A stretch of 20,899 bases of DNA from a virus, in IMG/VR virus record IMGVR_UViG_3300025141_012362, positions 1 through 20,899 of that record; one strand, 5' to 3'. Below are positions 6,981-20,491 of this stretch, in pieces. Within the stretch, counting starts at the first letter, position 1. Every line of letters begins with the position of its first letter. Under the pieces are notes generated by a model. It did no database searches, had not been told where the DNA came from, and was given only the letters and a program-made list of their open reading frames with translations. A program made the position numbers and the translations under genes.

Positions 6981-7252
6981 TGTCTTCTGCTAATAGAAAA
7001 TTACGAAGAAATAAATTGAAGCAAGCCAAGAAACAAATGAAAGAAACTCTTGGTTTGTTTGACAAAATACCAAGTATGTGCTTGACTTGTGGAGAGCCAT
7101 ATGATAAAACTAATAGAGAGCATGTTACTACCTGGAATGTAGTGGTTAGAAAGAAAGAAGAAAAAATCAACCTCTATTGCCCAACTTGTTGGAATGATGC
7201 TAAGGAATTTTTGGAACAATTAAAGGAGCATATTGATGAAACAAACACATAG
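6980..7252 (+). CDS. Small zinc-ribbon-like protein
   Basis: A 90-aa protein. The first ~30 residues are highly basic and helical (RKLRRNKLKQAKKQ), followed by two CxxC knuckles, C34/C37 and C67/C70, separated by about 30 residues. This spacing fits a zinc ribbon. The C-terminus is an acidic helix. The start ATG 6980 overlaps the dUTPase stop by one base; a TTG three bases earlier is less likely. The 3' end holds the AAAGGAG ribosome site of the IMPDH gene. A nucleic-acid-binding role is plausible from the basic tail plus zinc ribbon, but nothing identifies a partner or specific function. Confidence 0.75.
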   Translation: MSSANRKLRRNKLKQAKKQMKETLGLFDKIPSMCLTCGEPYDKTNREHVTTWNVVVRKKEEKINLYCPTCWNDAKEFLEQLKEHIDETNT

Positions 7253-8273
7253 TTTTGATGACGTATTGTTGGTACCTCAAAGTAGTGATGTAAGATCTAG
7301 AAGCGAAGTAGATCTTACAAGAAAAGTATCCGGCAATAAATTTAGTTTGCCGATTATGTCTAGTCCTATGGATACTGTTACAGAGGTTGATATGGCTCTA
7401 AGTATGTTTCGTGCTGGCGGGCTGGGTATTGTTCACAGGTATAATACTATTGAACACCAAGCAAGCCTTGTTAGCGAGATAAGAGATGTATTAGAAGAAG
7501 AACAAAGCTCTCAGGTTCATTCTATTGCCGCAGCGATCGGCGCATCTGGGGATTTTTTTGAACGAGCCCAAGAGTTATACAATGCTGGTACTCGTATATT
7601 TTGTATTGACGTGGCCCACGGCCATCACACCCTTGTTGAGCGAGCCATCAAGGAGGTTAGGGCACAGTGGGGTCTAAACGCTACAATTATAGCTGGCAAC
7701 GTTGCAACAGCAAAAGGTTATCTTGATTTGTCAGAGTGGGGTGCTGATGCTGTTAGGGTTGGTATTGGTGGGGGTTCAATATGTTCAACAAGAATCCAAA
7801 CAGGGCACGGCGTACCTACATTTCAGTCGGTGTATGATTGTAAATACGAAGATGGGGCAGCCATCATAGCAGATGGAGGTATCAAGACGGCTGGTGACAT
7901 TGTAAAGTCTTTAGCAGCTGGTGCTGATTTTGTCATGTTAGGGTCTATGTTGGCTGGTACGGAAGAAAGTCCGGGTTCTGTACATTCAGCATCTAATGGA
8001 AAAAGATATAAGGTATATAGAGGTATGGCAAGTATAGAGGCTCAAGTAGCTTGGCGAGGTAACGCTCGTTCACTGGAGGGTGTTTCTACTACTATACCTT
8101 TCAAGGGGCCAGTGAATAAAATACTTGATAACTTAGCGATGAATATAAAGTCTGGCTTGTCATATACAGGTGTGCGAAACATAACTCAATTACAGTCTCG
8201 CTGTGAGTTCATAACTCAAACAACGGCTGGTCGGACTGAAAGTGGTACGCATATTTTGAATAGAAATGTATAG
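7236..8273 (+). CDS. guaB: IMP dehydrogenase, CBS-less (GuaB/GuaC family)
   Basis: A 345-aa TIM-barrel enzyme of the IMPDH/GMP reductase family. Family marks: FDDVLLVP at the start, [18 protein letters not shown], and the catalytic loop [15 protein letters not shown] with C183; then [26 protein letters not shown] and [13 protein letters not shown] and the tail [10 protein letters not shown] favour IMPDH (IMP to XMP with NAD); GMP reductase normally has NMDTVGT. The two regulatory CBS domains of usual IMPDH (about 490 aa) are absent, and the active-site flap is short, lacks a clear RY dyad and is closer in length to GMP reductase, so GuaC-like activity is not excluded. Start ATG 7236 has AAAGGAG 7 bases upstream; TTG 7233 is rejected. 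Probably raises guanine nucleotide supply during infection. Confidence 0.93.
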
Positions 8274-8940: not shown

Positions 8941-9600
8941 ATGTCAGACAAGAAAACCAAGAAAGCAATTTTGAACGAGACCACAACCCGTAGGTTTTGG
9001 CAACTCGCAGGCTTAAAGCCTATCAATGAAAAGGCTTACGTCTTTGAAGAAGATGAAGAGCCGGCTGAAGAAGTGACTGAAGAAGCAACTGAAGAGGTTG
9101 AAGAGGGTAGCATCGGTGTCACCGAAGAAGAAGAGCCTATTGAAGAAATGGGCATATATGCTGCTGAAGATGAAGAAGAACTCGGTGCCGAAGAAGAACT
9201 CGGTGCTGAAGAAGAACTCGGTGCTGAAGAAGAACTTGGTGCAGAAGACGACCTTGCTGGGGAAGAGCCAGTTGAGGACGCCGAAGACATTGAAGTTGAC
9301 GTTCCTGAATCTGATGCTGAGTCCCTTAGAACCGCTAGAGACGTTCTTGATCAGATCCTCTCTGCCCTTGATGGCGGAGAAGAGGACACCGACGATGCTC
9401 TCGGTGATGAGGAATTGGCTGATACCGAACTAGACGCTGAAGAGCCCCTAGACGGTGAAGAAGTTCTTGATGATGAAGAACCTCTAGAAGAGGTTGATGA
9501 AGCAGAACTAGAGGAAGTTGCAGAAAGAATCGCAAATCGTGTCGCGAAGAAGATTCAAGAAGCACTCCAGAAAAAAATCAAGAAAGCTAAAAAAGATTAA
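8941..9600 (+). CDS. Very acidic repeat protein, probable virion/scaffold component
   Basis: A 219-aa protein, extremely rich in Glu and Asp from residue 35 to about 195. It is bounded by an N-terminal segment with ILNETTTRRFWQLAG and a basic, coiled-coil-like C-terminus (ERIANRVAKKIQEAL, then a lysine tail). In the middle, a six-residue unit (LGAEEE) is repeated four times. The layout of acidic core and basic amphipathic end resembles phage prohead core or scaffold proteins. LNE at 11-13 and INE at 28-30 fit the (L/I)xE cleavage rule of T4-type prohead proteases, a very weak motif. A strong AAAAGGAGAGAG ribosome site precedes ATG, and the gene uses more GCC/CTC/GAC codons than its neighbours, suggesting high expression. 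Function is inference. Confidence 0.75.
   Translation: MSDKKTKKAILNETTTRRFWQLAGLKPINEKAYVFEEDEEPAEEVTEEATEEVEEGSIGVTEEEEPIEEMGIYAAEDEEELGAEEELGAEEELGAEEELGAEDDLAGEEPVEDAEDIEVDVPESDAESLRTARDVLDQILSALDGGEEDTDDALGDEELADTELDAEEPLDGEEVLDDEEPLEEVDEAELEEVAERIANRVAKKIQEALQKKIKKAKKD
9181..9252 (+). repeat. Four 18-bp in-frame tandem repeats
   Basis: Four units begin at 9181, 9199, 9217 and 9235, each coding for Leu-Gly-Ala-Glu/Asp acidic triplets. Units 2 and 3 are identical (CTCGGTGCTGAAGAAGAA), unit 1 differs by one base, and unit 4 has diverged at several bases. This indicates recent slippage or unequal exchange that lengthens the acidic region without breaking the frame. Confidence 0.9.
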
Positions 9601-10001: not shown

Positions 10002-10297
10002 TGGACATTGTTGGCTGGAAGCAAGCATCATTGAATGATGATACTATTAAGTGTGTGCTTCAGGTTTCTTACAAAGACGGCAGGACTATCAAAACCGTTT
10101 TAAAGCAATTGAGTGACTGGCGTCAATCAGGAGAAGGGTATAGTTATAGCAGTAAGGATGCGATACTTCTCTTTACAAAGGAGTTTAAAAGTGATTACAT
10201 GTGGAAAAAGTTTCTCAAACAATTTCCATATAGAATCATAGAAAAGTCTAAGAGAAACAAAGAAAAGGTTTATAATGCAGATAAAATTATCAGATAA
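9998..10297 (+). CDS. Hypothetical 99-aa protein
   Basis: A small soluble protein of mixed composition with a lysine/arginine-rich C-terminal third (IIEKSKRNKEKV). It contains several aromatic residues (YSYSS, YMWKKFLKQFPY) but no motif I can assign. ATG 9998 overlaps the preceding stop by four bases, with ATG 10001 as an alternative; AAAGGAAGAAAG lies just upstream. Its end overlaps the ClpP-like gene by 23 bp, so it probably lies on the same transcript. The function is unknown to me. Confidence 0.6.
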   Translation: MMDIVGWKQASLNDDTIKCVLQVSYKDGRTIKTVLKQLSDWRQSGEGYSYSSKDAILLFTKEFKSDYMWKKFLKQFPYRIIEKSKRNKEKVYNADKIIR

Positions 10298-10940
10298 GAT
10301 AGAATTACCAGATGCTACCACTATAGAAGAGCAGCAACCAATTTATATAATCAACAACATAGATTCTTCAGACAAGAATGATGGCCGAGATTCATTAAGG
10401 AGTATAACACTGTATGGTGATATCCGTGAGACAATGGCTACAGATGTTATTCAAGCTCTGTTGTATTTTGATCACACTAGCAAGGAGATCGTTGAAACAA
10501 AAACTGGTGAGACCTTAGAAATTAATAAGCCAATTAAGATGTATGTTTCTACACACGGCGGTGTAGTGAATGACATGTTTTCTATTCTTGATGTGATAGA
10601 TGACATCAAAAATCGTTGCGCTATTGAAACGGTAGGTCTTGGTAAGGTTATGTCAGCAGGTGTGTTGCTTCTTGCTTCAGGTACAAAAGGAAAAAGGAAG
10701 ATAGGGAGGAACTGTAGAGTAATGCTTCATAGTGTTGTTGGTGGACAATACGGCTCATTCGCTAATTTGGAAAATGAAATGAAAGAAACCAAAGCACTTC
10801 AGGAGATGTTTTTTGATTATCTCTGTAATAACACGAAGCTAACGAAAACCAAAATAAAAAAGCTTCTTATTCCTAATGTTGATATCTATTTATCTGCAGA
10901 GGAAGCAATTGAGTACGGGATTGCTGACGAGATTCTTTAG
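10275..10940 (+). CDS. ClpP-like serine peptidase (family S14 type)
   Basis: A 221-aa ClpP/crotonase-fold peptidase. It contains STHGGVVNDMFSI (substrate/oxyanion strand, compare 'SPGGxxxxGxAI'), GLGKVMSAGVLLLASG with nucleophile S127, RVMLHSVVGG with H152, and NVDIYLSAEEAIEYG with D203. The Ser-His spacing of 25 and the 'YLSAEEAxEYG' context match ClpP, so the triad looks intact. It is slightly longer than bacterial ClpP, mainly in the N-terminal ~60 residues. Without a Clp ATPase in the window it may act alone or borrow the host unfoldase. Phage homologues are often prohead proteases; the nearby acidic scaffold-like gene fits that, but degradation of host proteins is an alternative. AAAAGG upstream supports the ATG. 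Confidence 0.88.
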   Translation: MQIKLSDKIELPDATTIEEQQPIYIINNIDSSDKNDGRDSLRSITLYGDIRETMATDVIQALLYFDHTSKEIVETKTGETLEINKPIKMYVSTHGGVVNDMFSILDVIDDIKNRCAIETVGLGKVMSAGVLLLASGTKGKRKIGRNCRVMLHSVVGGQYGSFANLENEMKETKALQEMFFDYLCNNTKLTKTKIKKLLIPNVDIYLSAEEAIEYGIADEIL

Positions 10941-11994: not shown

Positions 11995-13593
11995 ATGTCC
12001 AAGAGTTATTCTAATGGAAAGAGTTTGTATGAGTTGATGTTGGAAGGTGTTAACACACTGGCCGACAACGTAGCATCTACGTATGGCCCCCGTGGCCGTA
12101 ATGTAATATTAAAAGAAAAGGGGAAGCGTCCTATCATAACAAAAGATGGCGTAACCGTTGCTAGGTTCGTAACATTGGACGACCCATTTCAAAATGTAGC
12201 AGTTGAAATCGTCAAACAAGCATCGGAGAAAACTAATTCAGATGCCGGTGATGGTACTACAACTTCTACAATATTGGCCCGAGAATTGTTCTCTAACTCG
12301 CTTGAATTGTTGAGCAAGGGCATATCTCCTATTGAGGTAAAACGTGGCTTAGACAAGGTTTGTGGGCTTGTATGTGATAAAATAAGAGAGGTTTCACGCC
12401 CAATTTCTAGTGCCGAAGACATTGCCTTCGTAGCGAAAATATCAGCAAATAATGATTCAGTCATTGGAGATCTTGTATCTACTGCAGTTGATAAAGTGGG
12501 AAAGTCAGGCTCGGTGACTATTGAGGATGGTAGATCTACAGAAACTACCCTAGATCTTGTAGAGGGATTTAAATTTAATTCTGGTTTTGTTTCAAATTAT
12601 TTTGTAACAGACCAAAGAAGAAATGTTTGCAGGTATGAGAATCCGCTTTTGTTTTTGTGCGACTCGCAGATTGAGAACGTTCAAGAGATCTTGCCTGTAC
12701 TAGAAATTGCAGCTAGAGAGAACAAGCCGCTGGTTATAGTGGCAGATGACATTGCCGGTCAAGCACTGAGCGCGCTTATTATGAATACAGCGCGTGGCTC
12801 TATGAAAGTCGCTGCTGTTAAATCACCTAAGTATGGCGAGGAACGTAGAGCAATAATGCAAGATATGGCTATTGCAACTGGGTCCAAGTATTTTAAGACT
12901 ATGTTTGGTCATGATCTAAGAACTGTCACGATTAATGATCTTGGCACGTGTAATACAGTGGAGATTTCAAAGTATAACACAATTGTTGTAGGTGGCGCTG
13001 CTAACACATCAGAATTATCAGAAAGGATTGATGATCTCAGGGAACAAATTAAAGACACAGAAAGCTTGATTGATGCAGAGCAAATACAGGAAAGAGTAAC
13101 AAGGTTGTCTAGTGGTGTTGCCATTGTGAGAGTTGGTGCAGCAACAGAGATTGAAATGATAGAAAAGAAGCACAGGATAGAGGACGCTTTGGAAGCAGTT
13201 AGGTCTGCGCAACAAGAAGGTATTGTTCCTGGCGGCGGCATCACACTTTACAGAATAGCAGAATCTCTAAGAGAGGATGTGAAGGAGCTGGAGCTGTCTA
13301 ATGAACAGTCTTTTGCTGTTGACATATTTCTAAAAGTATTACGATCTCCAATTGCGACTATGATTGAAAATACCGGCCTAAATTTTTCCGAGATTAATGA
13401 ACTTCTTTTACAGGAAAAAGGAAATGAAAACATCGGGTTTAATTTTTTGACTGGTGAGTTGGTGGATATGTTTGAGGAAGGTATAATTGATCCTTGTAAA
13501 GTGACAGTCAACGCATTAAGGAATGCAGTGTCGGCAGCCGGGACATTGTTGACGACTAATTTTGCAATTATTCAAGATAAAAGTGAAAAGTGA
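11995..13593 (+). CDS. groEL: GroEL-type chaperonin (group I)
   Basis: A 532-aa Hsp60 subunit, near the E. coli length (548). ATP-site motifs are in place: TYGPRGRNV, KDGVTVA and DAGDGTTTSTIL with D86, plus the catalytic Asp of RIEDALEAVRSA (D397, E. coli D398) and GIVPGGGITL. Apical substrate-binding positions remain hydrophobic (FVSNYFVTD; ALSALIMNTARG). The usual GGM-rich C-terminal tail is absent; the protein ends KSEK. It should form an ATP-driven folding ring for phage proteins such as the capsid. No groES lies beside it, so it needs host or distant phage GroES, or works alone as described for some phage chaperonins. It has its own consensus promoter and a GTGAGG ribosome site. Confidence 0.97.
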   Translation: MSKSYSNGKSLYELMLEGVNTLADNVASTYGPRGRNVILKEKGKRPIITKDGVTVARFVTLDDPFQNVAVEIVKQASEKTNSDAGDGTTTSTILARELFSNSLELLSKGISPIEVKRGLDKVCGLVCDKIREVSRPISSAEDIAFVAKISANNDSVIGDLVSTAVDKVGKSGSVTIEDGRSTETTLDLVEGFKFNSGFVSNYFVTDQRRNVCRYENPLLFLCDSQIENVQEILPVLEIAARENKPLVIVADDIAGQALSALIMNTARGSMKVAAVKSPKYGEERRAIMQDMAIATGSKYFKTMFGHDLRTVTINDLGTCNTVEISKYNTIVVGGAANTSELSERIDDLREQIKDTESLIDAEQIQERVTRLSSGVAIVRVGAATEIEMIEKKHRIEDALEAVRSAQQEGIVPGGGITLYRIAESLREDVKELELSNEQSFAVDIFLKVLRSPIATMIENTGLNFSEINELLLQEKGNENIGFNFLTGELVDMFEEGIIDPCKVTVNALRNAVSAAGTLLTTNFAIIQDKSEK

Positions 13594-13685: not shown

Positions 13686-13964
13686 ATGTCAGAAACGCCA
13701 ATTAGTAATGAATTTGTCTTGGAATTAACTAGAAAATTAGATAGATTATGTAACTCTATTGATTCAATGAAAGAGAGACAAGATGAGATGGTAGAAAATG
13801 TTGCAAAAATCAAAGAAGCGGTATACAATCCAGATGAAGGGTTGTATGCTAGAATAAGAGCATTAGAGAGCTGGAAGGCTACATCTTCCAAAATGTTGTG
13901 GACGCTCTTTACAGCTTTGATTGGTTTATCCAGTGCTTTCATATTAAAAACTATAGGAGGTTGA
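13686..13964 (+). CDS. XhlA/holin-like protein: coiled coil + C-terminal TM
   Basis: A 92-aa protein. Residues 10-50 are an amphipathic coiled coil (ELTRKLDRLCNSIDSMKER), followed by NPDEGLYARIRALESWK and a single hydrophobic helix (MLWTLFTALIGLSSAFIL, about 70-88) at the C-terminus. This order (coil, then W-containing linker, then terminal membrane helix) is that of XhlA-type phage proteins, which sit on the cytoplasmic side of the membrane and assist lysis. The start is secured by a full AGGAGGT at 13671-13677. The gene follows a 92-bp gap after groEL that is T-rich (about 13650-13658) and shows only weak foldback, so a terminator is possible but not clear. Other membrane-tether roles remain possible. 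Confidence 0.75.
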   Translation: MSETPISNEFVLELTRKLDRLCNSIDSMKERQDEMVENVAKIKEAVYNPDEGLYARIRALESWKATSSKMLWTLFTALIGLSSAFILKTIGG

Positions 13965-15177: not shown

Positions 15178-15517
15178 GCAAAATAAATTTGGTGTAAAGC
15201 TATCTCCCGCAGAGGTAAAAGCTTTTGGTGAAATGGCACAACAGAATATGGACTTCTGCAAGAGGTTGATGTTTGATCACTTCACCGGACAAAACGATTA
15301 TTCTGAGGATCACTTCTTTGAGATAACAAAACTATATTCTAATTCTTATTTGTTTTTGGACTATCTAAAGAAAGTTACAATCAACAAGAAATTGGATGTA
15401 GAAAATCTATACTCTATGGAAACAGACGAAGTTTTGAATATCAGCAAGTGTGTTATAACGCTTGTAGAATCTAAACAGGAGTTAAAAGATAGAGGCATCA
15501 ATCTGGCACTACAATGA
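15170..15517 (+). CDS. Hypothetical 115-aa helical protein (TTG start)
   Basis: TTG 15170 overlaps the previous stop by 8 bp and has GGGGTAAAGG just upstream, which supports this non-ATG start. The protein is mostly helical (SPAEVKAFGEMAQQNMDF; VLNISKCVITLVESKQEL), acidic overall, with no membrane helix and no motif that I recognise. It ends in an ATGA overlap with the membrane protein that follows, so the pair is likely co-expressed. Confidence 0.65.
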   Translation: MDKQNKFGVKLSPAEVKAFGEMAQQNMDFCKRLMFDHFTGQNDYSEDHFFEITKLYSNSYLFLDYLKKVTINKKLDVENLYSMETDEVLNISKCVITLVESKQELKDRGINLALQ

Positions 15518-15855
15518 GCATATTGATTCAAGCTATATTTTTCTTTTTTGCAGGCCAAGTGCTGGCTTGGTTTCAACTTAATACACAATTCTTATCTAGT
15601 TGGTGGCAAGACCGACCGGTTGCTTCAGCGTTGTTGATGGGGGTGCCTTGTTCAATATCTTTTTGGTATGGATGGAAATTGATATGGATTTATTCTGAAT
15701 CAGTTTGGACCGCAAGGTTTATTGCTCAGTCTGTCGGAATTTTGGTATTCCCTCTTTTAACCTGGGCACTACTGGGTGAAAGTGTGTTAACTCCAAAAAC
15801 ATTATCTTGTTTGGCATTAGCATTAATTATACTTTTTATTCAAATTCGCTATTGA
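15514..15855 (+). CDS. Four-helix integral membrane protein
   Basis: A 113-aa protein made almost wholly of four predicted membrane helices: about 2-20 (LIQAIFFFFAGQVLAWF), 38-58, 65-88 and 92-111 (LSCLALALIILFIQI). Size and the last helix pair (LTWALLGESVLTPKTL) resemble the small multidrug resistance/DMT type fold, but the buried membrane Glu of EmrE-like pumps is not evident in helix 1. From memory, similar four-helix proteins occur in large marine phages. It would sit in the host inner membrane; transporter or membrane-remodelling roles are both conceivable. A consensus promoter lies across its stop. Confidence 0.75.
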   Translation: MSILIQAIFFFFAGQVLAWFQLNTQFLSSWWQDRPVASALLMGVPCSISFWYGWKLIWIYSESVWTARFIAQSVGILVFPLLTWALLGESVLTPKTLSCLALALIILFIQIRY

Positions 15856-15946: not shown

Positions 15947-18292
15947 ATGTCTTATAACACTAGAACCTGGAAAAATTTCTTAAATAATAATTCCTTTGAT
16001 CTTCTTACCGAAGCCAGGATCAAAGATATAAAAGCTAAATATCCGCATTGGGACACTTGGAATATAATAGATCTCTTTGTGCAAGAGCTGACACACAGAA
16101 AACTAAAAGTATCTAAATATATTGAGTGGCTTACAATGGTAATGCAGGATTCCTTTAAAAATAACGTTGCTGACTATGATCCTGATGAACCTTTTGATAC
16201 CAGAGAAATGGAAGACATGCAAGAAACGGCTATAGACTTCTTAAATTTGGTCCAAAATTTTGATAAGAATGTGTCAAAAATTCCAGAAAAAGATATAATG
16301 AAATATAAGAAGCCTATAGATTTAGAAACCGCTGTACTGAAGGCAGGTCCAAGTCGCAGCGAAACGGAGCAGGTGTTGAAGCAAGACATTGATAATGTTT
16401 ATCGTGACGAGGTTGCAGTAGTAGCCCGCCCCCATACTGAGGAAGCGGCATGCTATCTTGGCAGAAATACTAAATGGTGTATTTCTGCAACAGATGCTGA
16501 TAATTTAGATTTTGACAATCAGTTTAGGACTTACACCAAACAGGGAAATGTTTTCAGTATCGTGAGATTTCCAAACATCCCACAAGATAATCGTTTTCAT
16601 AAGCTTGCTCTCCGTTTAAACAAGGATGAAGCGAATGATTATCATATTGCTGATGTTTGGGACGTGTTGGACAAAGACTATCAAGTAGAGGATGCTTTAC
16701 CGAAAGCCCTCAAGCTTTCTGGCCTAAAGGGTACTGATGTGGGTGATGTATACGACGATATAACCACCGCTGCGTTAACGAATGCAAGGAACCGCCCACC
16801 AGATACAACTTATCTTGATTTAGAAAGCGCTCAGTGGCAACTGAGAAGAGCCAAGCCTGATTTTCATAGTAATTTTAATGTCTTCTATGTTAAGAGAGGT
16901 GATGGACAACCTGGGATTGAATATGGTGCAATGTTTACGATGTATTTTGAACAGGATGAGTTTGAAAAATCGGCAGAGGGTGATTACCGTATAGAATCAA
17001 AAGCGATTAGACACACCATCGCAGACTTGTTTGCTGAAGTGGCGGGCTATAGCCTAATGCGCAAGCTTGACGCAGGGGAAAGAGTTCTCGTTTCTACAGA
17101 GGAGAATAAGATCGTCTTAGATCTAAAACCAGAATTTGATAGACCGGTCTATCATACTGACCCAGACAGTTATTCCAAGAACGGCGATGGCTTTAAGAAG
17201 TTTCTAAACAATAGGAGCATTTCAAAGGGTGCGGGTATGGATATTGAAGCACACATAAGAAAGGGGCTTATTGAAAGGGCGGCGATAAAGAGAAGTCTTT
17301 TTCATACTGTTACTTCTAATAAGGAGAAGGTTCAAAAAGGTTTAAAGAATTTTAAGGAAGACAGAGGTCTTGAATATGTAGAGGGCCATCCAACGGAGTA
17401 TTCATTTCAGGTATATTATGGTAATAAATTTGAATATACAACTGATAATGAAGATTATGAGTTTCCTGCCAACCCTTGGGATATCACGGAGGGTTCAATG
17501 GGACAGGATGCACGTAGATTGATGCAGATGTTGAGAAAACATATGCTTAAGCGCGTAAGATCTGTTGCCCCAAAAGATCGCCTCAAAGACATAATATCTA
17601 TTTTAGACGATAGTATGGTTGATCGCAGTAAGGGCTTTTCTTTCAGGGTCCATACCTGGAATATAACAGGATTCGGAGGCGAGATTACTTCAGATCAGGT
17701 AACTGGCACCAAGCCCAGTAAAAAAAGAATACAATTGAATCCTGTGATTAAACTTAATTATAAACACACTGATGATGATGTGTACGCGCTTTTAAGTCTT
17801 TTACAACTATTAGATAAAGAGGAAGCATTCTTTAAAGAGAGTTTTGAGGCTGCTGTTGAGGATTTTATGAGAAAATATAGTCCTGGATCCTGGGTGAAAC
17901 ATGATAATCAGGAGATAGAAGAAGACGTGACAAAATATTTCCAAGAAATGATTAGTGAAAGGTCTAGACAAACACAGATATATGCTTTTTATCTTATGCT
18001 AGGGTATCGTCCTGCTAAAGATACAGATGATCGTATGCGTGGTCTTGAAGACATTGTGGCTGATATCCGCGCTGTGCCAAGCGTGACAGTTGTTGATGTT
18101 AAGGTTAAAAATCAAAAGATCAGTGAAACCGATTATATAGCTGGGCTCAAGCTAAAATTTATTCCAAGTATACCAGGTATTCTTAGATCTCCAGAAGATG
18201 CAAAGGTAAAGATTCTACAAGCCATAAGAAAGACCAGGGGGGTGATCAAGATTTTTAAGATTTCGGCTGGTTTTGAAAAGGCTGAATTATGA
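15947..18292 (+). CDS. 781-aa phage protein with 'TKWC' domain
   Basis: A large, mostly soluble protein. Residues 1-35 contain a short N-terminal segment ending FDLLTEAR, then helices with many aromatics. Around residues 165-220 it carries the block ACYLGRNTKWCISATDADN followed by FSIVRFP and KLALRL. This is the hallmark of a family seen in many phage genomes, without known function ('GTKWCTA' proteins). The middle part is mixed and charged. The last ~75 residues (VPSVTVVDVKVK, then KILQAIRKTRGVIKIFKI) suggest a small ferredoxin-like domain. LTE at 20-22 fits a T4-type prohead cleavage site but is weak. AAAAAGGG precedes ATG, and the gene begins a unit driven by the consensus promoter upstream. 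An internal virion protein is my best guess. Confidence 0.75.
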   Translation: MSYNTRTWKNFLNNNSFDLLTEARIKDIKAKYPHWDTWNIIDLFVQELTHRKLKVSKYIEWLTMVMQDSFKNNVADYDPDEPFDTREMEDMQETAIDFLNLVQNFDKNVSKIPEKDIMKYKKPIDLETAVLKAGPSRSETEQVLKQDIDNVYRDEVAVVARPHTEEAACYLGRNTKWCISATDADNLDFDNQFRTYTKQGNVFSIVRFPNIPQDNRFHKLALRLNKDEANDYHIADVWDVLDKDYQVEDALPKALKLSGLKGTDVGDVYDDITTAALTNARNRPPDTTYLDLESAQWQLRRAKPDFHSNFNVFYVKRGDGQPGIEYGAMFTMYFEQDEFEKSAEGDYRIESKAIRHTIADLFAEVAGYSLMRKLDAGERVLVSTEENKIVLDLKPEFDRPVYHTDPDSYSKNGDGFKKFLNNRSISKGAGMDIEAHIRKGLIERAAIKRSLFHTVTSNKEKVQKGLKNFKEDRGLEYVEGHPTEYSFQVYYGNKFEYTTDNEDYEFPANPWDITEGSMGQDARRLMQMLRKHMLKRVRSVAPKDRLKDIISILDDSMVDRSKGFSFRVHTWNITGFGGEITSDQVTGTKPSKKRIQLNPVIKLNYKHTDDDVYALLSLLQLLDKEEAFFKESFEAAVEDFMRKYSPGSWVKHDNQEIEEDVTKYFQEMISERSRQTQIYAFYLMLGYRPAKDTDDRMRGLEDIVADIRAVPSVTVVDVKVKNQKISETDYIAGLKLKFIPSIPGILRSPEDAKVKILQAIRKTRGVIKIFKISAGFEKAEL

Positions 18293-18849
18293 ATAAAGAT
18301 CAGCTACGTGAATTTTTCCAAGAATACTTACAAGACATTTTTGAATTAAAGCTCATAGATTATAACTTACAGGAATCTGCTAGTAGTGAGTCCAATATTG
18401 AGATCAACGCACAAGAAGGTGAAGTACCCACAGTACTTAAAGGGTCTGGAGTGGGCCTGTTGGATTCAGCATATTCAGCGCTGTTTAAACATTATGAGAA
18501 AAAATATACTTCTCTGGCCAGTTTAGATCTATATGATGCTTATTTTCAAATAGATCACAGGGCAGAAATATTAAAATCCAATATGAAAATCAAAATTCAA
18601 TTCAAAAATTCCAGGGGGATTATAACAGATTTTTCTTCCAGCGGGTCTTCAATGGGTTTGACTGGTGTTAACGCACTAGTAAATGCTTTATCTTTTTATA
18701 TAAATTGTGAATCCCTATTTTGTCGGATGAGATATCTAGTTAAAGATGCAGAGTCCAGAAAAAGAGGTGATATCCTAAGTAAATATAAATATGTTATGGG
18801 CCAGGTTGTGGAGGTAAATAACTATTCCGTTGTCACACAAGCTACTTGA
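18289..18849 (+). CDS. Protein resembling the LeuA allosteric domain
   Basis: A 186-aa protein. After a helical N-terminus, residues ~48-145 read GSGVGLLDSAYSALFKHY, then a strand with LDLYDAYF, then MKIKIQF, a turn, then SSSGSSMGLTGVNALVNAL. The order follows the regulatory domain of isopropylmalate/citramalate synthase (LeuA_dimer): 'GxGPvDAxxxAL', 'LxxYxVxa', 'vxVxl', 'GxGxsxdIxeAsxxAylxAl'. No catalytic TIM barrel is present, so it is not the synthase. It could bind an amino acid or just reuse the fold. The start has AAAAGG upstream and an ATGA overlap with the 781-aa gene, so the two are probably partners. Confidence in the fold is moderate, in any function low. Confidence 0.65.
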   Translation: MNKDQLREFFQEYLQDIFELKLIDYNLQESASSESNIEINAQEGEVPTVLKGSGVGLLDSAYSALFKHYEKKYTSLASLDLYDAYFQIDHRAEILKSNMKIKIQFKNSRGIITDFSSSGSSMGLTGVNALVNALSFYINCESLFCRMRYLVKDAESRKRGDILSKYKYVMGQVVEVNNYSVVTQAT

Positions 18850-18862
18850 AAGACTTTCTTTG

Positions 18863-18970
18863 ATGTTATGGTCTGCAATATTAACGTTTGCTATCTTCGC
18901 GATAAAGGACTGCGACGATCACAATAAAAGTGTTGAAAACCCTAGCATTAATCAAACTTATGAAGACTAA
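18863..18970 (+). CDS. Putative 35-aa membrane mini-protein
   Basis: A short frame: a hydrophobic stretch (MLWSAILTFAIFAI) followed by a charged tail (KDCDDHNKSVENP). An in-frame TTG at 18830 would extend it to 46 residues, with GGAGGT 14 bases further upstream; for ATG 18863 only a weak GAAAG is seen. The frame has no stop up to 18818. One membrane helix plus a short polar tail is typical of small phage membrane proteins. It fills most of the otherwise empty 128 bp between its neighbours, and its stop lies in palindrome copy 3. The call is tentative. Confidence 0.4.
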   Translation: MLWSAILTFAIFAIKDCDDHNKSVENPSINQTYED

Positions 18971-18975
18971 TTAGT
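18966..18975. promoter_or_regulatory. Palindrome ACTAATTAGT, copy 3
   Basis: The third exact copy. It contains the TAA of the mini-protein and ends two bases before ATG 18978, in the place where a Shine-Dalgarno would be. Protein bound here on DNA, or an RNA-level effect, could control the downstream start. No promoter boxes are obvious nearby. Confidence 0.5.
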
Positions 18976-18977
18976 GT

Positions 18978-19286
18978 ATGGCATTTTGTTTCCAAAGACC
19001 GAGAAAGTTCAAGGTAGGGGATTTGGTTGGACACTATTTACACGCTAGGGAGTGGATCGGCCTGATACTAAAGTTAAACCTTTTGGGGGAGATTTGTAGC
19101 GTAACTGATAGATATGATAATGAAAAGGCGCTGGTAAAAATTATACCAGGAACCAAATATCAAGATTATTTTCATCATCAGAGTGGAGATTTAACAGGGC
19201 AGGGTTGGATTTATTGTAAGTGGCTTTACATGATGGATAAAGGAGACAAATATGAATATAAGAAAATTAAAACCGATAATGATTGA
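18978..19286 (+). CDS. Hypothetical 102-aa protein, SH3-like
   Basis: The N-terminal half, FKVGDLVGHYL then WIGLILKL, ICSVTDRY and ALVKIIPG, looks like a small beta barrel of the SH3/KOW-like type, where 'F.vGDlV' and a 'G.I..v' strand are common. The C-terminal half is charged. I see no catalytic motif. The start ATG has no ribosome site because the palindrome ACTAATTAGT sits there; coupling to the mini-protein may serve instead. It overlaps the next gene by 35 bp and carries that gene's AAAGGAG. Confidence 0.6.
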   Translation: MAFCFQRPRKFKVGDLVGHYLHAREWIGLILKLNLLGEICSVTDRYDNEKALVKIIPGTKYQDYFHHQSGDLTGQGWIYCKWLYMMDKGDKYEYKKIKTDND

Positions 19287-19608
19287 GAAAAGTAAAGTTC
19301 CAGTGTTTTTATCAAAGTTTGCACCGATCACAATTGGGGCTATTGCTTTATTCCCGTTTGTTTTTTCGGTGGGTGTAATGAGTACTCGCCAAAAGCGTCA
19401 TGAAACAATACACTTTCAACAACAATTAGAAACAGGTGTACTTGGTTTTTATTTGATCTATCTCTGGGACTATGCCAGAATGAGAATCAAAGGTGTCAGT
19501 GGCCCCGAGGCGTATAGGCAGATAAGGGCTGAACAAGAAGCGCATGCCAACGATGCATATGCATCATATCTTTCACGCAGAAAGCGTTATGCTTGGTTGA
19601 GGAGGTAA
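19252..19608 (+). CDS. HExxH membrane protein, possible zinc peptidase
   Basis: A 118-aa protein with a hydrophobic helix at about 22-43 (ITIGAIALFPFVFSVGVM), then the zincin-type motif HETIH (H50, E51, H54) in the context RHETIHFQQQLE, a second partly hydrophobic helix (GVLGFYLIYLWDYARM), and an acidic helix RAEQEAHAND whose E94 or E96 could be the third zinc ligand. Small bacterial and phage proteins with 'RHExIHxxQ' plus an 'EREAY' helix have the same plan, and their activity is untested to my knowledge. AAAGGAG fixes ATG 19252. It precedes an L,D-transpeptidase-like gene by 4 bp, so action at the envelope is likely, perhaps in lysis. Fold claim moderate, activity unproven. Confidence 0.75.
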   Translation: MNIRKLKPIMIEKSKVPVFLSKFAPITIGAIALFPFVFSVGVMSTRQKRHETIHFQQQLETGVLGFYLIYLWDYARMRIKGVSGPEAYRQIRAEQEAHANDAYASYLSRRKRYAWLRR

Positions 19609-19612
19609 CATA

Positions 19613-20230
19613 ATGGCAACTGTTGAAGGCTTGGCAGCAAAGATTGTAGCTTTAAAATTCAAAAAGATTATGGAACGTAAAGGATATATCTTCTTTGAAT
19701 CTGGAGATCACAACCTAAACATTGTAGGTGTAAGAAATTCCTCTGGTGATGCTAGTAAATTTGATGATTTCTTGAATATGTTTTACAAAACAAAAGGCAA
19801 ATGGGTCTGGGATTGTTTTCAAATTACAACAGAGCCGGGATGGAAAATTTTAAAAAGACCCATCAACGAAAAGGGGACGGCCATTCTTGTGCCAGATCAA
19901 TATAGAGGTGTTTATAAGATTGATATACACAAAACATACCCAGCACTTTGTCAGCGCGGAGGCGTTGTAAAAGTTTGGAGAGACAATAACAGGGATAGCG
20001 AACCTGATTACGTGGGACCAGAAGATGAAGGCTGGTATGGTATAAATATTCATAAACAATTAGGCTCAGATACAAGGACAGATACGGGAGGCTCAAGCGC
20101 GGGCTGCCAGGTGTTCAGGAGCAGCAGAGACTTTAATAGGTTTATGAAGATATGTAATCTCTCAAAAGATAGGTGGGGTAACAGGTTTACATACACACTT
20201 ATTGAGGAAAAAGATTTAAATTTATGTTGA
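19613..20230 (+). CDS. L,D-transpeptidase/YkuD-like protein
   Basis: A 205-aa protein. The C-terminal part carries GINIHKQLG with H147, then SSAGCQVF with C165, and ends with a strand GNRFTYTLIEE. This resembles the YkuD motif HX(15-18)[ST]HGC, where Cys is the nucleophile, though the second His is Ala here and the spacing is one residue short. YkuD enzymes make or cut peptide bonds in peptidoglycan. No signal peptide or membrane helix is seen, which fits a phage lysin released through a holin, or a virion protein. AGGAGG overlapping the upstream stop gives a strong ribosome site. Alternatives: an unrelated Cys-protease-like fold. Role as endolysin is inference. Confidence 0.7.
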   Translation: MATVEGLAAKIVALKFKKIMERKGYIFFESGDHNLNIVGVRNSSGDASKFDDFLNMFYKTKGKWVWDCFQITTEPGWKILKRPINEKGTAILVPDQYRGVYKIDIHKTYPALCQRGGVVKVWRDNNRDSEPDYVGPEDEGWYGINIHKQLGSDTRTDTGGSSAGCQVFRSSRDFNRFMKICNLSKDRWGNRFTYTLIEEKDLNLC

Positions 20231-20255
20231 CTTGTATAAAATTATTTGATACATT
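20227..20255 (+). promoter_or_regulatory. Possible sigma70 promoter before DUF2061 gene
   Basis: TTGACT (20227-20232), a 17-bp spacer and TACATT (20250-20255). The -35 box is good, the -10 box mediocre. Start would be near 20262, two bases before ATG 20264, giving a leaderless message. Confidence 0.4.
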
Positions 20256-20263
20256 ATAAACAT

Positions 20264-20491
20264 ATGATAGAACGAAAAAGACATTTAGCGAAAGCGATCA
20301 CCTGGAGAGCCGTGGGAAGTGCTGATACTTTTTTATTAGGCTGGTTCTTAACAGGTTCAATAAAAACTGGTGCCTCATTAAGTATTTTAGAGACGCTAAC
20401 AAAGACTGTATTATACTATTTACATGAGAGAGCTTGGTATAAGACCAGGTGGGGTGTTAAATTAAACAAGAGAAAGGCAGAAGATGTTTAG
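20264..20491 (+). CDS. DUF2061-type small membrane protein
   Basis: A 75-aa protein starting ERKRHLAKAITWRAVGSADT, then two hydrophobic stretches (FLLGWFLTGSI; ASLSILETLTKTVLYYL) and ending HERAWYKTRWG plus a basic tail. The motif set 'K(A/T)ixWRxxxxxdT', 'ExxxKxxLYyxHERxW' is that of the DUF2061 membrane family, of unknown function, found in bacteria and some phages. ATG 20264 is the first good start, but no Shine-Dalgarno precedes it; TTG 20246 would add six residues and also lacks one. The last 8 bp overlap the next gene. It might modify or sense the membrane during infection. Confidence 0.85.
   Translation: MIERKRHLAKAITWRAVGSADTFLLGWFLTGSIKTGASLSILETLTKTVLYYLHERAWYKTRWGVKLNKRKAEDV

Follow-up and report, generated by a model that had tools for sequence, protein, structure and literature searches.

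A predicted stand-alone lysis enzyme with an L,D-transpeptidase-type fold in a viral contig, and its relatives in other phages

The DNA analysed here, called the window below, is the entire IMG/VR record IMGVR_UViG_3300025141_012362, which is 20,899 bases long. Five open reading frames (ORFs) on its plus strand, at positions 18830-20491, encode a mini membrane protein, an SH3-like small protein, a protein with an HExxH motif, a YkuD-like protein and a DUF2061 protein. A first reading of the sequence (the original prediction) had grouped the five as a possible non-classical lysis or cell-wall-remodelling cassette. We suggest that the lysis reading applies to one of them. The YkuD-like protein has, convincingly on the evidence of its structural model, an L,D-transpeptidase fold, and on balance we favour, with modest confidence, the view that it acts in phage lysis as a stand-alone enzyme, most likely as an L,D-endopeptidase, and that its neighbours are ordinary phage genes.

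The AlphaFold2 model of the YkuD-like protein is of high confidence (predicted local distance difference test score, pLDDT, 94.1; predicted template modelling score, pTM, 0.91). When it was re-aligned with 999 chains, taking one row per entry and showing 50 entries, the top 45 rows had the L,D-transpeptidase fold, with Z values from 9.1 to 5.7, the top ones being near the level at which the tool warns, and the next row had a Z of 2.5. Pgp2 was the top match (Z 9.1, root-mean-square deviation (rmsd) 3.8, 124 aligned), and further matches were Csd6 (Z 8.7), Bd1075 (Z 8.4) and DpaA (Z 8.0). The motif of the YkuD family consists of a catalytic His and Ser/Thr-x-Gly-Cys, with 14-17 residues between the His and the Ser/Thr. 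In the window protein 14 residues lie between H147 and S162, and the Cys comes 18 residues after the His, so that the family's spacing is kept. Both H147 and the run S162-A-G-C165 are invariant in 44 of 44 aligned sequences, and R123-D124 and H106 are among the further residues of which the same is true. We regard the fold as convincing because the contrast with the unrelated rows is joined by this invariant dyad. The proposal of an L,D-transpeptidase-like enzyme with a Cys/His site (His147/Cys165) was therefore a good one, although the gathering cut-off of the Pfam family YkuD (PF03734) was not reached by the window protein, which had no Pfam match at all up to E 1.

By sequence, the protein belongs to phrog_3000 (E 4e-31), a family without an assigned function, and it also matches phrog_33083, labelled 'endolysin', at E 7e-12, only over positions 297-437 of that 456-position profile. 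The family is common to large, mostly marine phages, crAss-like phages, phage ACA1 and elements in Bacteroidota. No predicted helix, lipobox or recognisable export signal was found in the window protein. A sequence search of solved structures returned no relative of the YkuD-like or the HExxH protein, and two rows for query A1 (E 0.9-1) were ABC transporters.

It is the position of homologues in other phages that points to lysis. The P2-like Pseudoalteromonas phage ACA1 encodes a homologue with 36% identity, gp35 (L144:4974-5594), annotated as hypothetical and placed between the tail tube and tail chaperone genes. Phage HP1 has hol-lys-Rz, i.e., holin, endolysin and Rz-like spanin, after its tail genes, and PV94 has a zinc-finger gene, a holin, an endolysin and two hypothetical genes between a tail protein and the chaperone; the interval occupied by gp35 in ACA1 is the one in which HP1 and PV94 carry holin and endolysin. 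The annotation of ACA1 (52 genes) includes two holins, both lying elsewhere than gp35, and no other endolysin. The authors of ACA1 write that its tail genes lack the lysis module and that they could not identify the endolysin (PMC10612066), and we put gp35 forward as a candidate for that enzyme.

A second line of evidence comes from the crAss-like phages, in a survey of phage contexts that left out the metagenomic records LR745206 and LR756502. All seven distinct crAss-like phages on the hit list (crAss002, cr107_1, ctcc615, cr8_1, cr271_1, jaberico and cr127_1) encode, just downstream of the homologue, two proteins of spanin-like topology, the first small and with its helix at the N-terminus, the second with its helix at the C-terminus; ctcc615 departs from this in having one gene with both helices, and cr8_1 in having the pair after one intervening gene. 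Three of the seven loci contain a lipobox-like LLSC. In crAss002 the pair following the YkuD homologue is unique among 75 same-strand adjacent pairs (79 of 81 genes tested), and the record of that phage, with 81 genes, has an annotated holin and no annotated endolysin. A review counts spanins and lysins with the late genes in the crAss-like order and mentions a 'lysozyme-type amidase' (PMC10136315); therefore, other crAss-like lysins exist.

We envisage that the YkuD-like protein, having no export signal, would accumulate in the cytoplasm until holin holes in the inner membrane let it cross. Cys165, activated by His147, would then attack peptidoglycan stems at the bond that joins D-Ala-4 to the L-centre of diaminopimelate, the third residue; with water serving as acceptor, this L,D-endopeptidase reaction would cut cross-links until the wall fails. 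The protein would work in this way in the window phage too. Going further, and here we are more doubtful than confident, the phrog_3000 family could be an endolysin that has been overlooked in many marine and Bacteroidota phages, including several crAss-like phages and ACA1, and that uses a cysteine to cut L,D bonds.

A number of observations weigh against the YkuD-like protein being a lysis enzyme of this type. The textbook YkuD motif is SHGC, with a His inside, and here it is replaced by SAGC, Ala163 being invariant in 44/44. A Pfam scan of the 44 members gave YkuD once (E 0.044) and the Tlde1 domain twice (best E 0.0084), and the remaining matches were weak and unrelated. Foldseek ranked L,D-transpeptidases first but weakly, with a best E of 1.5e-2 and no PDB match at or below 0.001. 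We know of no activity for the family to which the protein belongs. A review lists L,D-transpeptidase, L,D-carboxypeptidase and L,D-endopeptidase as the activities of the YkuD family, records the last for LdtCd2 and LdtCd3, and states that it was not seen in other YkuD-type enzymes (PMC12729407). Because the review restricts it to these two enzymes, cross-link hydrolysis by an L,D-transpeptidase fold is possible, and it is not the rule. The spanin-like genes of the crAss-like phages are topology calls, none of the four that were scanned (from crAss-like phages or contigs) matching a PHROGs spanin, and the Bacteroides phages DAC16 and SJC03 lack such a pair after their YkuD homologue, with a 65-aa two-helix protein encoded two genes upstream of it. 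No recognisable lysis cassette surrounds the gene in the window's own group, where a small membrane protein stood beside it in 6/43 cases (0.14), against a background of 0.16.

Other hydrolases in the same group carry further weight on that side. Viral-contig loci were fetched for 62 records with a YkuD relative and for the best 80 of 104 with an HExxH relative, some of them from records of 70-395 kb. Of the 62 YkuD-bearing records, the 15 of greatest length were surveyed for peptidoglycan hydrolases. In 12 of these 15, another peptidoglycan-hydrolase domain was found over cut-off. By family, there were matches to SLT in nine records (eight over cut-off), M23 in five (three over), M15_4 in three, M15_3 in three (two over cut-off) and Amidase_2 in one. 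Phage_lysozyme matched none of the 15 and three of 14 controls; GH108 likewise matched none, but since no control genome matched it either, its absence is not concluded. Record G002 had M23 only, below cut-off, and G004 and G013 had none of the families tried, a set that did not extend to GH19, GH25, CHAP, Amidase_3 and NlpC/P60; such absences are weak because the records may be incomplete. The idea that the YkuD-like protein is the sole hydrolase was rejected because of the 12 records with another such domain over cut-off. In the closest relative, G001, an amidase lies inside a 490-aa protein that looks virion-associated and is encoded elsewhere than the YkuD-like gene, and a 153-aa spanin-like protein, with a signal-like start and a C-terminal helix, is encoded far from it. 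A complete set of holin, endolysin and spanin elsewhere had been named in the original prediction as evidence that would tell against its cassette, and part of such a set is what was found: the amidase and the spanin-like gene of G001, and the other hydrolases in 12/15 records. In view of the hydrolases in its relatives, and of the G001 amidase, the YkuD-like protein may be one of two wall enzymes.

These hydrolases also speak for the strongest alternative, which we consider unlikely, though it deserves more attention than any other. On this alternative, the YkuD-like protein would be an accessory peptidoglycan enzyme, either an L,D-carboxypeptidase or a trimming transpeptidase, at work beside a separate main endolysin of SLT, M15 or amidase type. 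Its nearest folds include Pgp2, Csd6 and Bd1075, which we take to be L,D-carboxypeptidases. Among the bacterial YkuD loci kept (the 80 best of 98, mostly from Bacteroidota according to their titles), the homologue directly follows an amidase gene in 14/80, the end of the amidase gene lying between -42 and +74 nt relative to the start of YkuD; a family scan of one of them, L229, identified the amidase as Amidase_2 (PF01510, E 1.9e-17). This neighbourhood counts in favour of the lysis reading as well. However, in ACA1 and crAss002 an accessory enzyme would have no annotated endolysin to assist. Many homologues of the bacterial loci have a C-terminal helix. The locus L229:4555-8174 and the similar Bacteroidota loci L218, L220, L227, L228, L230 and L247 were seen to combine Amidase_2 with a YkuD-like protein bearing such a helix, a nearby protein that is helical at one or both ends, and a membrane protein of 57-58 aa.

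An improbable alternative is that the YkuD-like protein remodels the wall during infection and is no lysis factor, for example by cross-linking against superinfection or by serving virion entry. The fold is that of transpeptidases, with hydrolysis being our own extrapolation, and the gene has no link to small membrane genes in the window's group. However, host L,D-transpeptidases carry an export signal, and the window protein has neither a signal peptide nor an export helix; the lysis-slot position in ACA1 also argues for a lysis enzyme and against a remodeller.

The gene lies in a right-end block of seven plus-strand genes, Q781 through DUF2061, in which neighbours overlap or are 4-33 nt apart:

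15947..18292, plus strand: Q781, the upstream gene of the conserved block; 24 matches in fetched loci, some overlapping.
18289..18849, plus strand: Q186, a conserved partner encoded ahead of the mini and SH3-like proteins; 22 matches, some loci overlapping, every one accompanied by Q781 and the SH3-like gene.
18830..18970, plus strand: mini membrane protein of 46 aa starting at TTG, with a single predicted helix and a polar tail.
18978..19286, plus strand: SH3-like small protein, 102 aa; 35 nt overlap with the start of the HExxH gene.
19252..19608, plus strand: HExxH protein, 118 aa, of the zincin-like 'protease' family phrog_15610.
19613..20230, plus strand: YkuD-like protein, 205 aa, with an L,D-transpeptidase-type fold; predicted lysis enzyme.
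20264..20491, plus strand: DUF2061 protein, 75 aa, or 81 aa if the start is TTG 20246.

That the five small ORFs are compact and on the same strand was correctly described, and the comparison with a close relative, L002, indicates that they are real genes under purifying selection: the ratio of non-synonymous to synonymous change (dN/dS) was 0.07 for the mini protein, 0.10 for the SH3-like protein, 0.16 for the HExxH protein and 0.10 for the DUF2061 protein, and in the YkuD-like gene the non-synonymous proportion (pN) was 0.06, against a synonymous one (pS) of 0.89, at which synonymous change is saturated. Of the limits first given for the module, 18863-20491, the end held; the start did not, the mini protein probably beginning at TTG 18830, because that N-terminus is conserved in relatives.

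The HExxH protein matches phrog_15610, labelled 'protease', at E 1.2e-20 over residues 25-117. Its motif had been predicted to form an active site, and H50-E51-x-x-H54 is indeed invariant in 55/55 aligned sequences, together with E94 and E96. Prediction of the active-site structures, which had been proposed as a check, gave a clear fold for the YkuD-like protein and, for the HExxH protein, a confident model (pLDDT 93.4) to which nothing in the PDB clearly corresponds (no match at E <= 0.001). When 14 chains were re-aligned, a zinc metallopeptidase came out best, in a weak row (Z 3.5, rmsd 5.4, 102 aligned), and kinship with it was not accepted. The protein's one hydrophobic stretch is folded in the model as strands before a long helix. 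Judged by sequence, it belongs to a zincin-like family of which some Bacteroidota genomes also carry a single member; of the bacterial genomes tested, 6/11 gave one match each. Since HExxH homologues occur in their genomes, and many YkuD homologues occur in Bacteroidota phages and genomes, we suspect that the host of the window phage belongs to the Bacteroidota. The bacterial HExxH genes in L274, L275 and L278 have a neighbourhood in common, whose members resemble, by eye, a DUF4136-type lipoprotein, a pyridoxal-phosphate (PLP) enzyme and a glucosaminidase.

The context of this gene in eight of the 60 phage records with a relative bears on the five-gene cassette, in which the mini and DUF2061 proteins would disrupt the membrane and two enzymes would act on the envelope. 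In its favour, the HExxH homologue of Riemerella phage RAP44 directly precedes a holin (phrog_14914, E 1.7e-82), which is followed by a protein with a lipobox and a C-terminal helix and then by an annotated endolysin, and in the crAss-like phages Carjivirus, cr110_1 and cr3_1 the homologue comes after a small protein predicted to have 2-3 helices. However, in PM21P1, EMB2, cr4_1 and BS-TP1 it lies beside the portal gene, within the head/terminase region or close to an integrase. Small membrane proteins were found beside the HExxH gene in 19/60 cases (0.32), against a background of 0.25 in the window's group. An envelope role for the HExxH protein is plausible.

Counts were made by profile searches over the fetched viral loci and the window, and the conservation of gene order that was looked for did not emerge. 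The YkuD-like gene directly follows the HExxH gene in only three of the 12 contigs whose fetched stretch holds both, these being the window and two close relatives; in the other nine it lies 371 nt downstream (one), 1.5 kb downstream (one) or 4.6-5.7 kb upstream (seven). The full grouping of five recurs, among the fetched loci, in only L002 and L003, and the DUF2061 gene shifts in position relative to its neighbours. The SH3-like gene, in contrast, was found in 18 distinct contigs including the window, each with Q186 and Q781. An HExxH gene follows it within about 0.4 kb in 14/18 contigs (10/14 stretches fetched via the HExxH search), and in 3/7 of the SH3-bearing stretches fetched through YkuD; the mini protein is present in nine of the 18 (12 matches, the window counted). 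The steadier unit is Q781-Q186-SH3-like, and the five-gene module is a local arrangement, because the positions of the YkuD-like, HExxH and DUF2061 genes vary among relatives. Despite its tight same-strand packing, the dedicated cassette is therefore rejected as very improbable, since its order is not conserved and membrane neighbours are not clearly enriched; of the envelope or lysis role first proposed, what survives is that of the YkuD-like gene, through the evidence from other phages.

None of the five genes matched a holin or spanin family, and no lipobox protein was flagged in the window; the mini protein was considered as a spanin and rejected, no lipobox being flagged in it. The count of 'three membrane-type proteins' first given is uncertain: the mini protein has a single predicted helix and a hydropathy of 1.67, and the HExxH and DUF2061 proteins are less clear. 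The DUF2061 label was confirmed (PF09834, E 7e-21; 74.8 bits, the cut-off being 23.1); this is a membrane protein according to Pfam, yet it fell under the hydropathy threshold used, and one relative was found in phage records. The SH3-like label was not confirmed, as 16 members gave no Pfam match above cut-off, and the phage records searched contained no relatives of this protein. A short stretch of Q781 matches jumbo-phage proteins.

Elsewhere in the window, an open-ended ORF at 3-1556 contains metal-binding repeats of the MopE type (PF11617, E 9e-11) and weakly matches VWA, which seems unusual for a phage; its probable counterpart in G001 is a protein of 750 aa with a lipobox. Resemblances noted by eye are to an IMP dehydrogenase or GMP reductase (7233-8273), a ClpP-like protease (10275-10940) and a GroEL chaperonin (11995-13593), and an acidic protein with tandem ELGAEE-type repeats is encoded at 8941-9600. 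A coiled-coil protein of 92 aa with a helix at its C-terminus (13686-13964) and a 113-aa protein with several predicted helices (15514-15855), both with counterparts in G001, are possible candidates for producing the membrane lesion; the latter had no homologue in the phage records searched.

The lysis reading of the YkuD-like protein offers a testable endolysin candidate for ACA1, and for crAss002, which has an annotated holin and no annotated endolysin. If it is right, gut and marine phages have turned the fold of a cross-linking enzyme to use in lysis, and a cysteine nucleophile would cut L,D bonds, in contrast to the usual muramidase or amidase chemistry. Carbapenems form adducts with L,D-transpeptidase-type enzymes. 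Lysis could then be carbapenem-sensitive, and beta-lactam inhibitors of L,D-transpeptidases might block the cysteine site. For the window itself, the tempting interpretation of five neighbouring genes as a cassette is corrected as unsupported.

Among known systems, the HExxH protein matches by sequence phrog_15610 and the 'putative zincin superfamily protease' of crAssphage, a group met in varying contexts, among lysis, head or tail genes, and for which we know of no tested function. The holin-endolysin-spanin cassette of the HP1 type is matched in position by the ACA1 homologue, which sits where HP1 and PV94 have these genes; however, the YkuD-like gene of ACA1 stands there alone, with the holins elsewhere, and the window has no recognised holin or spanin. 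With the YkuD-family L,D-transpeptidases (PF03734; B. subtilis YkuD, LdtMt2, Pgp2 and Csd6), the window protein shares the fold and the His...Ser-x-Gly-Cys arrangement, and it differs in falling below the Pfam cut-off, in its SAGC, in having no export signal and in being phage-encoded. We found no characterised stand-alone YkuD-type endolysin in the open-licence PMC literature. The PhaLP table lists ten phage lytic protein entries with a YkuD catalytic domain (PMC8310338), and another article describes a 15-domain gut endolysin with such a domain (PMC13284279). The window protein resembles these in its L,D-transpeptidase-type domain and differs in being a stand-alone protein of 205 aa that the Pfam YkuD model does not reach. 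Because YkuD-type domains have already been recorded, rarely, among phage lytic proteins, the YkuD-like protein is a diverged stand-alone form of something known.

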